A stretch of 64,000 bases of DNA from Thiobacillus sp. SCUT-2 (lineage in GTDB: Bacteria; Pseudomonadota; Gammaproteobacteria; Burkholderiales; Thiobacillaceae): contig NZ_CP141769.1 of the NCBI RefSeq assembly GCF_035621355.1, forward strand, positions 682,001 through 746,000. Direction: 5' to 3'. The notes beneath the pieces are model-generated. The model was not told the origin of the DNA. It made no database searches and saw only the letters and a program-made list of their open reading frames with translations. The translations under genes and the position numbers were made by a program. Positions 59,085-64,000 of this stretch are shown one piece after another. Positions within the stretch are counted from its first letter, which is position 1. Each line of letters begins with the position of its first letter.

Positions 59085-59570
59085 TCACAGGGGAGCCTTC
59101 AGCTTGCGGCCGCCCGTGATGGAAAACCCTTCGCGCTCATAAAACAGCAGCGTCCGGTCGAATTGCGGCAGCGGCGGAGTCGTGACCTCCAGACGGCTCC
59201 AGCCGCGGGTCGAGCCAAAATCCCTGGCTTGACGGACCAGGCGTCGGCCCAGTTCCTGCGAGCGGAATCCAGGACGAACATAGAGTTCGGGGATCGTGCC
59301 GAATGCCCCTTCAGCGTATAGCGCATAGCTCTCGATCAGGGTGATGAACCCGACGGGCCCGTCGTTTTCCCCACAGGCGACGAAGACGAAGTACTTCTCC
59401 CGACTGATGAAATCAGCGAGTCTCTCCGTCGTCGCGGCCAGATCAAAGTTGAACGCCTGAATGCCGGTGCTCGCCATGATCTCGGACAGCAATTCGCCGA
59501 CCATTGCAGCGACCTGCGAAGCATCGCGGGTGCAGGCCCGTCTGATCGTGAATTCGGTGTGCATCTTCAT
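59085..59570 (-). CDS. GNAT-family N-acetyltransferase
   Basis: The 161-aa product has the GNAT fold: an N-terminal TIRRACTRDASQVAAMV, PVGFITLIESYALYAEGAFG, and the acetyl-CoA loop region ELYVRPGFRSQELGRRLVRQ near residue 93, with FYEREGFSI near the end. Substrate unknown. ATG 59570 (MKMHTEF) is chosen; the frame is open for another 24 codons upstream. Confidence 0.85.
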   Translation of the reverse strand: MKMHTEFTIRRACTRDASQVAAMVGELLSEIMASTGIQAFNFDLAATTERLADFISREKYFVFVACGENDGPVGFITLIESYALYAEGAFGTIPELYVRPGFRSQELGRRLVRQARDFGSTRGWSRLEVTTPPLPQFDRTLLFYEREGFSITGGRKLKAPL

Positions 59571-59678
59571 GTGGCCCAAGGTTGCCGGTAACCGGCGCGC
59601 GAAAGGAAGCGAGGCCGACCGAATCATGTTCGGCGGGGCCACGCGCAGGCGCGACCGCGCGGGATGGCAGGCCTGAGC

Positions 59679-60026
59679 CTACGCTTGCCTGACGATGTCG
59701 ACCGAGATCTCCACAGCCGGGATCGATCCGCGGTTCTCGAGCCAGTGCAGGGTGTTCCTGTCCTCGGGCCAGCCCACGCCCGGGCCATAGTCGGTCGCGA
59801 CGCCATCTCGATGGTCGGTGATCGTACCTTGCAGGATGTAGACCACACCGGGTCTGTCCTTATGGTCGTGAATCGGGCCGAAGACGCCTCCAGGCTCGAT
59901 GGTCACCATACGCATCCGAAGCTGGCGCCCGGCCATGCCCTCGATCTCCGAACCGAGATCAACCGTCGCAAGCAGGTTCACCGTCACCCCCCTCGTCTCC
60001 GGTGCCGCCTGTTCGTTGCTCATCAT
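59679..60026 (-). CDS. Cupin-domain protein
   Basis: The 115-aa protein has one cupin barrel with the metal-site pattern GPIHDHKDRPGVVYILQG and a later HWLENRGSIPAVEIS. The second cupin motif is diverged. AGGAGG lies before the ATG. It may bind a metal or a small ligand. It is upstream of the GNAT gene on the same strand (108-nt gap). Confidence 0.82.
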   Translation of the reverse strand: MMSNEQAAPETRGVTVNLLATVDLGSEIEGMAGRQLRMRMVTIEPGGVFGPIHDHKDRPGVVYILQGTITDHRDGVATDYGPGVGWPEDRNTLHWLENRGSIPAVEISVDIVRQA

Positions 60027-60350
60027 GCCCTCCTCTCCATGGTCCAGCGTCTGACGTCATTCATGTAGCCCCTGAGGGCCGGACGTTCTTCAATATAGAG
60101 GCAGGCCATCCCCGCCACCAGCCGATCGATTGATAAAAGGCGATTATCGCGCCAGGCTTCGATCGTGCGCCATGAAGAAGGAGACCGCGCCGGGTCGGCG
60201 CTGTCCCCGCCACGATGGGCCGCTCAGGCCGGGAAGCTTGGTCTCATGCGTAGCAGGCGGGCTGTGCGAGGCCGGGCGCAGGCCTCGCGAGCCGTCACGG
60301 AAACGACAAGGGCCGCAATTGCGGCCCTTGTCGTGGCGATGCCCTGATGC
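60027..60350. other. 324-bp intergenic stretch
   Basis: This gap between the cupin start and the end of the E2-E3 gene holds no convincing gene. A short plus-strand frame (from 60172, MKKETAPGRR) runs into antisense sequence and has no supporting motif. A GATAA...TTATC inverted repeat lies near 60134-60150, and the terminator palindrome lies at its far end. Confidence 0.6.
60304..60333 (-). terminator. Terminator of the pyruvate dehydrogenase operon
   Basis: A perfect 30-bp palindrome, with 15-nt arms starting CGACAAGGGCCGCAA, lies 17 nt after the stop of the E2-E3 gene and is followed on the minus strand by TTT. It would form a long hairpin at the end of the operon transcript. Confidence 0.8.
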
Positions 60351-63300
60351 TTACTTCTTCGCCGTCCGCCGCAGGCGGTTCAGCAAGCGCCGCGCCAGTT
60401 CGCCGAACAGCTCGGTCTGCGTCGGATGCGGGAAGATGGCCTTGGCGACCTGCGTGAGCGTCATTTCGCCCGCGACCATCATGACGCCGATGCCGATCAG
60501 GGTGTCGGTGTGGTCGGCGAGGAAGTGCACGCCGATGATGCGGCCGGTCGCCTTGTCGGCGACGAGCTTGATCATGCCCTCGGTCTCGCCGGTGATCATC
60601 GCCTTGGCGTCGATGCTCATCGGCATCTTGGCTTCCACCGCGTCGATGCCCTTGGCCTTGGCCTGCGCGACCGAGAGGCCGACGAAGCCGGCCTGCGGAC
60701 GCGAGAAGGTGACGCCGCAGTCCTTGTCCTGGTCGTAGATGCTGCCATGGCCGAGCAGGTTGTCGGCGGCGACGCGGCCCTGCGTCGCGGCGGTGTGGGC
60801 GAGCATGTAGCCGCCGATGACGTCGCCGACCGCGTAGACGTGCGGGGCGCTCGTCTGGCAGCGCGCATTGACCTTGATTGCCGCACCGTCGAGCTCGACG
60901 CCGACCTTGTCGAGGTTGAGGCGGCTGGTGTCGGGGCGCTTGCCGGTGGCCATCAGGACGACGTCGCAGTCGAACACCGACTCGACGCCTTCCTTGTTCG
61001 CATAGCGCAGCTTCATCGCGCCCGGCGTGCCGGAGACTTCGTTGATCGCGGCATGGGTGACGACGGTGATTTCCTTCTCAAGCGAGGCGATCAGCGTCTT
61101 GGCGATTTCCTCTTCGACCTCGGCAAGGATGCGCTCGTTGCGCTCGAGCATCAGCACCTCGGCGCCGAAGTCGCGGAAGATCTGCGCCATCTCGACGCCG
61201 ATCACGCCGCCGCCGACGATGCCGAGCTTCTTCGGCGGGGAGGCGAGGTTCCAGATCGTGTCGGAGGTGACCACGCCGCCCGTCGCCAGGTTCTCGCGCG
61301 CGCCGGGGATCGGCGGCACGAAGGCGGGTGCACCCGTGGCGATGACGGCCGCGCCGAAGCTCAGCTGACTGACGACGCCGTCGGGGGCGGTGATCTTCAG
61401 CGTGTGGGCGTCGATGAACTCGCCGAAGCCTTCGATCACGTTGATCTTCATGCCCTTGTCGGCCTTGAGCGCCATTTCGCCGCGCGCCTGCTGCACCCAG
61501 CGGCGGTGCTTCTCGACCTGTCCCCAATTGAGCTTGGGCGCGTTCGTGCCGTCCACGCCCATCTCGGCGTCGTGCGCGCGGTTGCGGATGTTGTCCGCCG
61601 CCGCACGCCAGGCCTTCGAGGGGATGCAGCCGCGCCACAGGCATTCGCCGCCGGGGAAGGGCTCGTTGTGCACCATCGCGACCTTGATGCCATGGTCGGC
61701 CAGGTCGCGCGCGCAGTCCTCGCCGCCGGGGCCGCCGCCGACCACCACGACCGGGTAATCCCAGTTGCCTTCGGGGATGGGCGAAACGGGCGCGCTCGTG
61801 GTTGCAGCGGTGCCGACGGATTCAGCCGCCGCCGCGCCGCCCGCCATCCAGGCGTCGGGCGCCTCGATGGTCTGCTTCAGCGTGGTGAGATATAACGCCA
61901 CGTCGGCGCCATTGAGCACGCGGTGGTCGCCGGTGATCGTGAAGGGCGTGCCCTGCGGGCCGTTCGCGGCGATCGCCAGGATCGCGGCGATGCCGGGTGT
62001 GGGGATCGCGGTGAAGTGCGCCACGCCCAGCATGCCCATGTTGGAGATCGTGAAGGTCGGGTTGGCGTACTCGGCCGGCGCGAGCTTGCGCACGCGTGCA
62101 CGCTCGACGAGGCCGGTCCAGTCGCCCTGCAGCGCTTCCAGCGAGCGCTTTTCGATGCCATGCAGGATAGGCACCACCAGCCCGCCATCGTTCGACATCA
62201 CGGCGACGCCGAAGTCGTGGTTCGTGCGCTCGACCAGCTTGTCGACCGGCTGGTAGGCCCAGTTCATGCGCGGGAATTTCGCCATCGCGACCGAACAGGC
62301 CTTGGCGATCGCCACCGTCACCGAGACCTTCTTGGCCTTGGCGGCGGCAGTGAGCTTGGCGGTGTCGATGTTCACCGTGACGTTGAAGGTCGGCAGCGTG
62401 AGCGAGGCGGTCATCGCGTGGCTGACGGCCTTTTCCATCGAGGTCATGGCGCGGCCCTGACCGGGCACGTCGACCTGCGGCAGCGAGTGCGCGACTTCGG
62501 CCATCGACGGGCGCGCGCGCGCCACGTCGGCGGCGACGATCACACCCGACGGCCCGCTGCCGGCGAGACCGGCGAGGTTGACGCCAAGCTGCGCGGCGAC
62601 CTTGCGGGCGTAGGGCGAAGCCGGGCGGCCCGGCACGCGCGCCACCGGCGGCTGGCTGCCGCCGATGGCGACCGGCGCCGGCGCGGCCTTGGGCACGGGA
62701 ATGGTGGGCTGTTTGTCGGCGGGGTGCGGCGCGACCTTGTGGGTGTCCTTGACCTTGTGCTCGGCGGAGATCGTCACGCCGGTGTCGTTCGCTTTCGACG
62801 CGTCGTCGACGATGAAGGCCATCGGGTGGCCGACCTCGACCACGCTGCCGACGTCGGCGATCGGGCCGGAGAGGAAGCCTTCCTGGAACACCTCGACGTC
62901 CATGATGGCCTTGTCGGTCTCGACCGTGGCGACGATGTCGCCGCGGCGGATGCTGTCGCCGGGCTGCTTCTCCCAGGTCACGACGACGCCTTCGGTCATG
63001 GTGTCCGACAGTTGCGGCATCACGATCGGCGTGCCGGCGTGATGCGGGATCATCTCGGTCTGCGCCTTCTCGGCGACCACCTCGCCGGCTGCGATCGCGA
63101 CGTCGCCCGGGGTATCGGAGATGTAGCCGAGCGCACCGCCGACCGGGATCGTCGCGCCGACGTCGGCGATCGGGCCCGCCAGATAGCCGGCCTTGAACAC
63201 CTCGACGTCCATGATGGCCTTGTCGGTCTCGACCGTGGCGACGATGTCGCCGCGCTCGACCTTGTCGCCCGGCTGCTTCTCCCAGGTGACGACGACGCCC

Positions 63301-63353
63301 TCGGTCATGGTGTCCGAGAGCTGGGGCATCGTGATGGCGTAATGTTGGGACAT
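60351..63353 (-). CDS. Fused pyruvate dehydrogenase E2 (acyltransferase) and E3 (lipoamide dehydrogenase)
   Basis: One 1000-aa chain carries two enzymes of the pyruvate dehydrogenase complex. Residues 1-505 form E2: lipoyl domain 1 (Lys45 in ETDKA), lipoyl domain 2 (Lys148 in the same motif), an Ala/Pro linker, the subunit-binding domain (about 244-282) and the catalytic core with GDHRVLNGAD (His477; Asn replaces the usual Asp). After a linker (506-530), residues 531-1000 form E3: FAD motif VVVVGGGPGGEDCARDL, redox disulfide Cys571/Cys576 in GGECLWRGCIPSK, NAD motif LGIVGGGVIGVEM, and the C-terminal HPTQTE. There is no frameshift or internal stop. It follows the E1-beta gene, with a palindromic repeat between, and ends at a terminator. 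The E2 motif indicates a pyruvate-type acyltransferase, but other 2-oxo acids cannot be excluded. Confidence 0.92.
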   Translation of the reverse strand: MSQHYAITMPQLSDTMTEGVVVTWEKQPGDKVERGDIVATVETDKAIMDVEVFKAGYLAGPIADVGATIPVGGALGYISDTPGDVAIAAGEVVAEKAQTEMIPHHAGTPIVMPQLSDTMTEGVVVTWEKQPGDSIRRGDIVATVETDKAIMDVEVFQEGFLSGPIADVGSVVEVGHPMAFIVDDASKANDTGVTISAEHKVKDTHKVAPHPADKQPTIPVPKAAPAPVAIGGSQPPVARVPGRPASPYARKVAAQLGVNLAGLAGSGPSGVIVAADVARARPSMAEVAHSLPQVDVPGQGRAMTSMEKAVSHAMTASLTLPTFNVTVNIDTAKLTAAAKAKKVSVTVAIAKACSVAMAKFPRMNWAYQPVDKLVERTNHDFGVAVMSNDGGLVVPILHGIEKRSLEALQGDWTGLVERARVRKLAPAEYANPTFTISNMGMLGVAHFTAIPTPGIAAILAIAANGPQGTPFTITGDHRVLNGADVALYLTTLKQTIEAPDAWMAGGAAAAESVGTAATTSAPVSPIPEGNWDYPVVVVGGGPGGEDCARDLADHGIKVAMVHNEPFPGGECLWRGCIPSKAWRAAADNIRNRAHDAEMGVDGTNAPKLNWGQVEKHRRWVQQARGEMALKADKGMKINVIEGFGEFIDAHTLKITAPDGVVSQLSFGAAVIATGAPAFVPPIPGARENLATGGVVTSDTIWNLASPPKKLGIVGGGVIGVEMAQIFRDFGAEVLMLERNERILAEVEEEIAKTLIASLEKEITVVTHAAINEVSGTPGAMKLRYANKEGVESVFDCDVVLMATGKRPDTSRLNLDKVGVELDGAAIKVNARCQTSAPHVYAVGDVIGGYMLAHTAATQGRVAADNLLGHGSIYDQDKDCGVTFSRPQAGFVGLSVAQAKAKGIDAVEAKMPMSIDAKAMITGETEGMIKLVADKATGRIIGVHFLADHTDTLIGIGVMMVAGEMTLTQVAKAIFPHPTQTELFGELARRLLNRLRRTAKK

Positions 63354-63465: not shown

Positions 63466-64000
63466 TTACGCCTTGCCGAACATCTTCAGCACGGCCTTCA
63501 CCACGTCCTCGTGATCGGGGATCGTCGCCTTTTCCAGCGTGTGGTTGTAGGGCTGCGGCACCAGGGCGGAGTGCACGCGCACCGGCGCGGCATCGAGCTC
63601 GAAGAAGCATTCCTCGTTGATGATCGCGATCACCTCGGAGCCGACGCCGACCGGGGCTTCGTCTTCCTCGGCGATGACGGCGCGGTGGGTCTTGCTGACC
63701 GACGCCTTGATGCCGGCGCGGTCGAGCGGGGCCAGCGAGTAGAGGTCGACGACCTCGGCCGAGATGCCGTACTGCTTGTCGAGGATCTCGGCGGCCTTGA
63801 GACACCAGTGCACCGAGATGTTGTAGCCGAACAGCGTGACGTCGGTGCCGGCGCGCGCGACTTCCGAGCCTTCCAGCGGATGGAAGTATTCGCCGTCCGG
63901 GACCTCGCCCTTCATGTTGTACATCAGCTCGTGCTCGTTGATGAACACGGGGTCGTCGCAGCGGATCGCCGACTTCAAGAGGCCGTAGGCCTGCTTCGGG
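63466..64000 (-). CDS. pdhB: Pyruvate dehydrogenase E1 component, beta subunit (3' part)
   Basis: The gene runs off the window edge; about 178 C-terminal codons are visible. The reading GLLKSAIRCDDPVFINEHEL, YNISVHWCLKAAEIL, EVVDLYSLAPLDR, and the C-terminal VPQPYNHTLEKATIP are typical of the transketolase C-terminal domain of E1-beta. Its presence shows that the complex uses heterotetrameric E1 (alpha-beta), rather than the single-chain AceE common in Betaproteobacteria. Confidence 0.92.
   Translation of the reverse strand, partial: PKQAYGLLKSAIRCDDPVFINEHELMYNMKGEVPDGEYFHPLEGSEVARAGTDVTLFGYNISVHWCLKAAEILDKQYGISAEVVDLYSLAPLDRAGIKASVSKTHRAVIAEEDEAPVGVGSEVIAIINEECFFELDAAPVRVHSALVPQPYNHTLEKATIPDHEDVVKAVLKMFGKA

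Follow-up and report, generated by a model that had tools for sequence, protein, structure and literature searches.

A gene in Thiobacillus sp. SCUT-2 that joins E2 and E3 of the pyruvate dehydrogenase complex on one chain

A stretch of 64,000 nucleotides of the genome of the sulfur-oxidising bacterium Thiobacillus sp. SCUT-2 (contig NZ_CP141769.1, positions 682,001 to 746,000; the whole stretch is called the window) contains a gene that joins the acyltransferase (E2) and the dihydrolipoyl dehydrogenase (E3) of the pyruvate dehydrogenase complex (PDH) in one protein. Textbooks describe the PDH as a machine built from three separate enzymes. With two of the three on one chain in many members of the class, the assembly of the particle must change, and the E3-binding domain (peripheral subunit-binding domain, PSBD) could be freed for E1. 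From the sequences, we lean slightly towards a reading in which the fusion is the E2·E3 of the PDH, its PSBD is freed for E1 and, as the sole E3 of SCUT-2, it makes the PDH particle double as the E3 station for the 2-oxoglutarate dehydrogenase complex (OGDH) and for the glycine-cleavage H protein (GcvH). The Thiobacillus arrangement seems to have rewired this second central complex, since OGDH is without parts that are known to dock E3 elsewhere. It thereby becomes directly testable how E3 is shared between separate 2-oxoacid dehydrogenase complexes.

One frame for E2 and E3

The frame runs on the minus strand from window position 63353 to 60351, with an ATG start, a TAA stop and no interruption. 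The first-pass annotation had described this uninterrupted 1000-codon frame correctly, omitting only the strand. Its list of parts (two lipoyl domains, a subunit-binding domain, the acyltransferase core and the complete lipoamide dehydrogenase motifs) was confirmed by Pfam and by the motifs. The domain order is lipoyl–lipoyl–PSBD–E2 core–E3 on one chain, and every named Pfam domain scored above its cut-off. In the following features, invariance refers to an alignment of 20 proteins, namely the SCUT-2 fusion and 19 others that are 55–84% identical to it.

60351..63353, minus strand: E2-E3 fusion gene, 1000 amino acids plus stop
63123..63335, minus strand: lipoyl domain 1, residues 7–77 (Pfam Biotin_lipoyl), with lipoyl-lysine K45 invariant in 20/20
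62808..63032, minus strand: lipoyl domain 2, residues ~108–182 (second of two Pfam Biotin_lipoyl stretches; bounds taken from the strands of the predicted structure), with lipoyl-lysine K148 invariant in 20/20
62523..62624, minus strand: peripheral subunit-binding (E3_binding) domain, residues 244–277 (Pfam E3_binding, 45.6 bits)
61845..62450, minus strand: E2 acyltransferase core, residues 302–503 (Pfam 2-oxoacid_dh, 139 bits), shortened to 202 residues against 224 profile positions
61761..61844, minus strand: E2-E3 junction, residues 504–531, Ala/Pro-rich, sequence without stop or frameshift, low predicted local distance difference test score (pLDDT)
60354..61760, minus strand: E3 (dihydrolipoyl dehydrogenase) half, residues 532–1000 (Pfam Pyr_redox_2 534–859, Pyr_redox_dim 881–986)
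61626..61643, minus strand: redox disulfide C571-LWRG-C576, read in the sequence, invariant in 20/20
60411..60428, minus strand: HPTQTE motif (H976), read in the sequence, invariant in 20/20, presumably the catalytic base for the partner subunit of E3

The motifs found were two ETDKA (K45 and K148), which we take to be the lipoylation sites, DHRVLNG (H477), GGGPGG and GGGVIG, presumably for flavin adenine dinucleotide (FAD) and nicotinamide adenine dinucleotide (NAD), respectively, the C571-x4-C576 disulfide and HPTQTE (H976). No variation was seen across the alignment in the two lipoyl-lysines, in DHR and HPT, in the redox disulfide or in the glycines of the FAD and NAD motifs, and all domains were present in 20 of the 20 fusions (profile matches at E 0.01). 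With its catalytic motifs intact, the E3 would work within the fusion.

The related-locus set comprised 80 loci kept of 123. The DHR motif and the FAD motif lay in the same frame across the junction in 79 of them. In the 80th (L090), the junction was read through too, but the FAD motif was changed and the contig end cut the locus. A stop or frameshift between residues 505 and 531, which the first-pass annotation had named as a result that would refute the fusion, was found nowhere in the SCUT-2 frame. Among the 65 loci that no contig end truncates, the four tested E2/E3 motifs were present in 63, the two ETDKA in 63 and all of them in 61. An assembly artefact or a chance frame was considered and rejected on the basis of the 79 of 80 loci; either is very unlikely as the origin of the frame. 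The median ratio of nonsynonymous to synonymous differences (pN/pS; 13 hand-picked pairs each) was 0.12 for the E2 core, 0.23 for E3 and 0.25 for sucB, and by these ratios both fusion halves and sucB are under purifying selection.

The fusion is not a rare oddity of one genome. It was present in one frame in 78 of 370 genomes sampled from the class (each at least 90% complete; SCUT-2 included). A strong match was found in 85 of the 370: besides the 78 fused cases, there were 4 ordinary neighbours, i.e. separate neighbouring genes (G291, G175, G221 and G107), 1 unfused E2 and 2 cases split by contig breaks at the locus, which were left out of the fused count (G402 and G418). A phylum-wide draw of 397 genomes gave only 3 fused cases; the other 14 of its 17 hits were neighbouring genes read through stops. 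The share of fusions hence depends on the draw, and no wide spread through the phylum was seen in these 397 genomes. The earlier judgement that a full E2-E3 fusion is unusual holds for the literature: no description of one was found in open-access papers by narrow phrase searches, which did not cover subscription papers. It does not hold for the genomes of the class, where such fusions are common (78/370), and they are not common across the phylum (3/397).

The nearest named loci were from Thiobacillus and up to 92% identical. Other named relatives were found in Sulfuriferula and in gammaproteobacteria such as Thiogranum and Acidiferrobacter, and many relatives are metagenome bins. No close relative on plasmids was seen among the matches listed, with the 20 listed places being 26–35% identical. 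The 20 fused E3s formed one clade (support 100) apart from 19 unfused relatives in a quickly built tree of 39 sequences, which had several long branches among the unfused sequences. Since there is a single fused clade, the fusion likely arose once; no sign of many independent fusions was seen in this tree. The genome with the unfused E2 (G245, L124) carries a fusion-type E2 whose gene closes with a stop codon and has no E3 part, with small HicAB-like genes just upstream (read by eye), so separation does occur.

A single E3 and the loss of docking parts in OGDH

The SCUT-2 genome (one contig, 99.91% complete) holds one Pyr_redox_dim match (E ≤ 1), which is the fused one, one TIGR01350 match (E ≤ 1e-60) and two E2 cores, those of the fusion and of SucB. 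The PSBD of the fusion is the only PSBD found in it (E 0.01). The sucA and sucB genes (898 and 375 aa) lie in an sdh-sucA-sucB region without an adjacent lpd (gene names partly by eye), and glycine-cleavage (gcv) genes are present. As the fused E3 is the sole one found in the genome, OGDH probably has to borrow it. The genome content (one Pyr_redox_dim, one PSBD and a SucB without PSBD) fits a dependence of OGDH on a part that otherwise belongs to PDH, with the physical complex being only putative.

A set of 55 fusion genomes, made up of G011 and 54 of the 78 from the class, was examined for sucA and for a free lipoamide dehydrogenase (Lpd). A sucA match was found in 32 and none in 23. A free Lpd above the cut-off was present in 30 of the 32 genomes with sucA (in 29 of these 30 within 3 kb of sucA) versus 3 of the 23 without it (Fisher p 7e-10, shared ancestry ignored). 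The two sucA genomes without a free Lpd were both Thiobacillus. GcvP was found in 54 of the 55. In up to 20 further genomes, glycine cleavage may thus also depend on the fused E3, unless it uses a relative that scores below the cut-off.

Thiobacillus was represented by 36 genomes, assigned by the same-genus label of the database. A SucB match was found in 35 of them, with some being fragments. The 30 SucB examined (six of the 36 genomes were left out) all kept the lipoyl and catalytic domains, and the PSBD was found in none of the 30, even at E ≤ 1. The SucB PSBD was present in 3 of 3 non-fusion relatives. Exactly one PSBD was found in 31 of the 36 genomes, 30 times in a frame of 796–1121 residues; in G008, the frame that holds it is short and has a fragmentary copy next to it. 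No PSBD was found in 5 draft Thiobacillus genomes, and two were found in three fusion genomes with a free Lpd. One section of a published account describes the PSBD as preserved across prokaryotic E2 of OGDH (E2o) (PMC9974300), and Thiobacillus SucB is a bacterial exception to that statement.

The SucA of Thiobacillus is affected as well. A segment of ~40 residues at the N-terminus was missing in 9 of the 9 sequences read: the distance from the N-terminal anchor to the first conserved block was 36–38 residues (n=9) compared with 76–83 in 5 others (the anchor pattern missed G331, whose motif was read by eye, and G090 was dropped, having no frame). For human OGDH, the N-terminal region of its E1 (E1o) is proposed in part of one paper to bind both E2o and E3 (PMC8146983). 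By analogy, and in our own reading, the lost segment may be the equivalent of this docking region.

In the fusion, acetyl groups would travel on the lipoyl arms from E1 to the E2 core, and the arms would be re-oxidised by the covalently attached E3 behind it. This E3 would need no docking site, so the PSBD would be free for E1 and the usual competition between E1 and E3 would end. That the domain is kept despite a covalent E3 had been pointed out in the first-pass annotation and was borne out by its Pfam score. The retention is probably explained by the exclusive binding of either E1 or E3 to bacterial E2, as stated in the portion consulted of PMC2880790: with E3 attached, every PSBD is able to hold E1. 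We infer that the PSBD of the fusion most likely now serves E1 and no longer binds E3. In Thiobacillus, the fusion would have become the E3 of the whole cell, OGDH would then have lost its own recruitment parts, and the PDH particle would re-oxidise the lipoyl groups of OGDH and GcvH.

A more far-reaching version is tentative, and we would put it somewhat short of even. PDH, OGDH and glycine cleavage might all run via the E3 of the PDH core, PDH and OGDH might form an obligate supercomplex, and a cage held by E3 dimers may replace the classical core. An OGDH without its own Lpd gene, PSBD and E1o docking segment would be able to work only if its lipoyl arms reached the PDH particle. In ordinary E2 cores, the C-terminus takes part in trimer–trimer contacts. 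Here it runs into E3, and a chain that combines a trimeric E2 with a dimeric E3 may build the E3-dimer-held cage.

The contact between PSBD and E3 was compared at the positions that we take to form it, Arg135 and Arg139 of the PSBD with Asp344 and Glu431 of E3 (B. stearothermophilus numbering; the equivalence of PSBD positions was set by eye). One section of PMC9974300 describes an electrostatic zipper between E3 and the charged side chains of helix 1 of the PSBD. The Arg139-equivalent was Ala or Gly in 20 of the 20 fusions, and the Glu431-equivalent was Ala or Ser in all 20 fused E3s. In unfused E3s beside E2 or sucA, the latter position was Glu in 6 of 8 (the others were Asn and Asp). These substitutions are suggestive of an erosion of the contact. 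The loss of the Arg156-equivalent (R in 1/20) was not used as an argument because the PSBD chain 1w4i also has Val there.

Evidence against a shared E3 and rival explanations

A number of observations speak against the preferred reading. The argument from the PSBD–E3 contact is weak: the Arg135-equivalent was retained in 20 of the 20 fusions, and of the 7 unfused PSBDs read, only 2 had Arg139. Glu occupied the 431 position in just 8 of 23 of all unfused relatives, one free Lpd above the cut-off (L130) has Ala there, and the Asp344 position was Asp in 12 of 20 fused E3s versus 1 of 8 unfused E3s beside E2 or sucA. Both halves scored low with the NCBIfam models: the fusion reached 279.6 bits with TIGR01349 (cut-off 445) and is thus not filed as that E2 equivalog, and its E3 half reached 365.2 bits with TIGR01350 (lipoamide dehydrogenase; cut-off 408.8). 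Other fused frames were likewise below the TIGR01350 cut-off among the matches listed. No second Pyr_redox_dim was found in the SCUT-2 genome by a profile search, which an E3 unlike known families would escape, and an 846-aa frame of this genome matched the E3 half weakly (28%, residues 647–871) without a Pyr_redox_dim. In 4 of the 36 Thiobacillus genomes (G005, G013, G016 and G029), a free Lpd above the cut-off stands beside a lipoate-protein gene. G043 (L190, L213), of the same order and another family, is a fusion genome with a SucB without PSBD in which the SucA segment is kept; it is possibly an intermediate state. Moreover, one E3 common to several complexes is described as ordinary in sections of two papers (PMC5178258, PMC6270654), the first of which, a Sideroxydans genome paper, places the E3 gene apart from the OGDH genes. 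The unusual feature is the place of the shared E3 within the PDH core, not the sharing itself.

The free Lpd of the four Thiobacillus genomes (L196–L199) has a CLHRGC disulfide. By eye, the genes next to it encode a GcvH/LbpA-like lipoate protein and an OsmC-like protein; a rhodanese was listed as well at 3 of the 4 loci. It is not evidently for PDH or OGDH, and the loci are perhaps a sulfur-oxidation lipoate module.

The fusion could also be for PDH only, with the Thiobacillus OGDH being partial or decaying, e.g. a decarboxylase/transferase without E3, as in autotrophs without a full tricarboxylic acid cycle. This would account for an OGDH that is without an adjacent Lpd gene, the PSBD and the SucA segment together, and 23 of the 55 fusion genomes have no sucA match at all. 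We consider it unlikely: a SucB match was present in 35 of the 36 Thiobacillus genomes, the 30 examined keep their lipoyl and catalytic domains, sucB is under purifying selection, and a lipoyl domain without any E3 would, by reasoning, be used once and then stall.

Less probable still is that another protein recruits E3, such as an MRPS36-like adaptor, or that an unrelated dihydrolipoyl oxidase re-oxidises the OGDH lipoyl group. Eukaryotic E2o also lacks the PSBD, and one section of PMC9974300 names MRPS36 as a proposed adaptor for its E3; further Pyr_redox_dim proteins do occur in other Thiobacillus genomes. The SCUT-2 genome has no other Pyr_redox_dim match, and an adaptor would still bring the fused E3, which makes it a variant of the explanation we prefer. 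Processing or internal re-initiation of the fusion, giving free E2 and E3 in the cell, is the least plausible, since 79 of the 80 loci retain the single frame, even if the 28 residues of the junction, with their low pLDDT, look flexible and the distance from DHR to the FAD motif varies between 47 and 73 residues (79 loci).

Core shape, known systems and neighbouring genes

The fused E2 core is altered. The spacing from AIxA to DHR was 14 residues in 79 of the 79 fused loci measured (L081 did not fit the AIxA-DHR pattern) compared with 26 in 34 ordinary E2 (30 SucB and 4 others). Another shortened segment lies early in the core. The predicted model of core and E3 matched solved E3 structures across ~460 columns, and no PDB chain spanning both halves was seen among the matches listed (60 of 132). 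Single-chain models reached predicted template modelling scores (pTM) of 0.46 (20 sequences) and 0.61 (50 sequences), with low pLDDT in the linker. A rigid E2-E3 geometry is not supported, as the relative placement of the halves is untrustworthy at these values. The earlier statement that E2:E3 is fixed at 1:1 follows for the chains themselves.

The fusion shares with a canonical PDH E2 the lipoyl domains, the PSBD, the acyltransferase core with DHR and the operon with E1α and E1β. It differs in its C-terminal E3, in having 12 residues fewer before DHR and in the second shorter core segment. The FAD, NAD, disulfide and HPT motifs are those of a canonical Lpd, as is the predicted fold, whereas here the enzyme is fused, CLWRGC replaces CLNVGC, the TIGR01350 score is under the cut-off and the clade is separate. 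In Neisseria and other bacteria, E3 has an N-terminal lipoyl domain. These proteins likewise combine a lipoyl domain with E3 in one polypeptide, but have no E2 catalytic core, while the fusion has a full E2. As in Thiobacillus SucB, the PSBD is absent from E2o in the eukaryotic OGDH with MRPS36, where an Ala/Pro-rich loop takes its place; the Thiobacillus case is bacterial and combined with a fused E3.

Actinobacterial OdhA is described in part of PMC10415282 as an E1o-E2o fusion in a mixed supercomplex of PDH and 2-oxoglutarate dehydrogenase (ODH) that depends on the lipoyl groups of the PDH E2 (E2p). Both cases involve a fusion in the 2-oxoacid dehydrogenase machinery; the actinobacterial one makes OGDH depend on PDH parts, and the Thiobacillus one would do so. 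OdhA joins E1 and E2 of OGDH, whereas in Thiobacillus E2 and E3 of PDH are joined, and OGDH keeps its own lipoyl domain and would borrow E3. The OdhA system is the direct precedent for a PDH-OGDH dependence, built differently.

The gene order from upstream to downstream is E1α, E1β and fusion, and two further features flank the fusion in the window.

63466..64000, minus strand: 3' part of the E1β gene (Transketolase_C; 327 aa in full, runs past the window)
60303..60334, minus strand: perfect inverted repeat, terminator-like, just past the stop codon, read directly from the sequence

A 333-aa E1α gene precedes E1β (the full genes were read from locus L009). Upstream of the fusion, both E1α and E1β were found in 66 of the 80 loci and only E1β in 5. 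The other 9 had neither, and their available DNA begins inside the fusion or no more than 122 bases ahead of it.

Several fusion frames of ~890–925 residues (e.g. G370, G353, G083 and G131, the last being L144) match the model from position 103–116 onward and seem to carry one lipoyl domain, not two. In the fusion of L146 (G401), the E3 half jumps from one PGGE stretch into the next, and ~25 residues of the FAD-binding region are missing; this gap would reflect either a misassembly or a deletion between short repeats. The minus strand downstream of the SCUT-2 fusion (window positions 59085–60026) encodes two ordinary neighbours, a GNAT acetyltransferase and a cupin protein.

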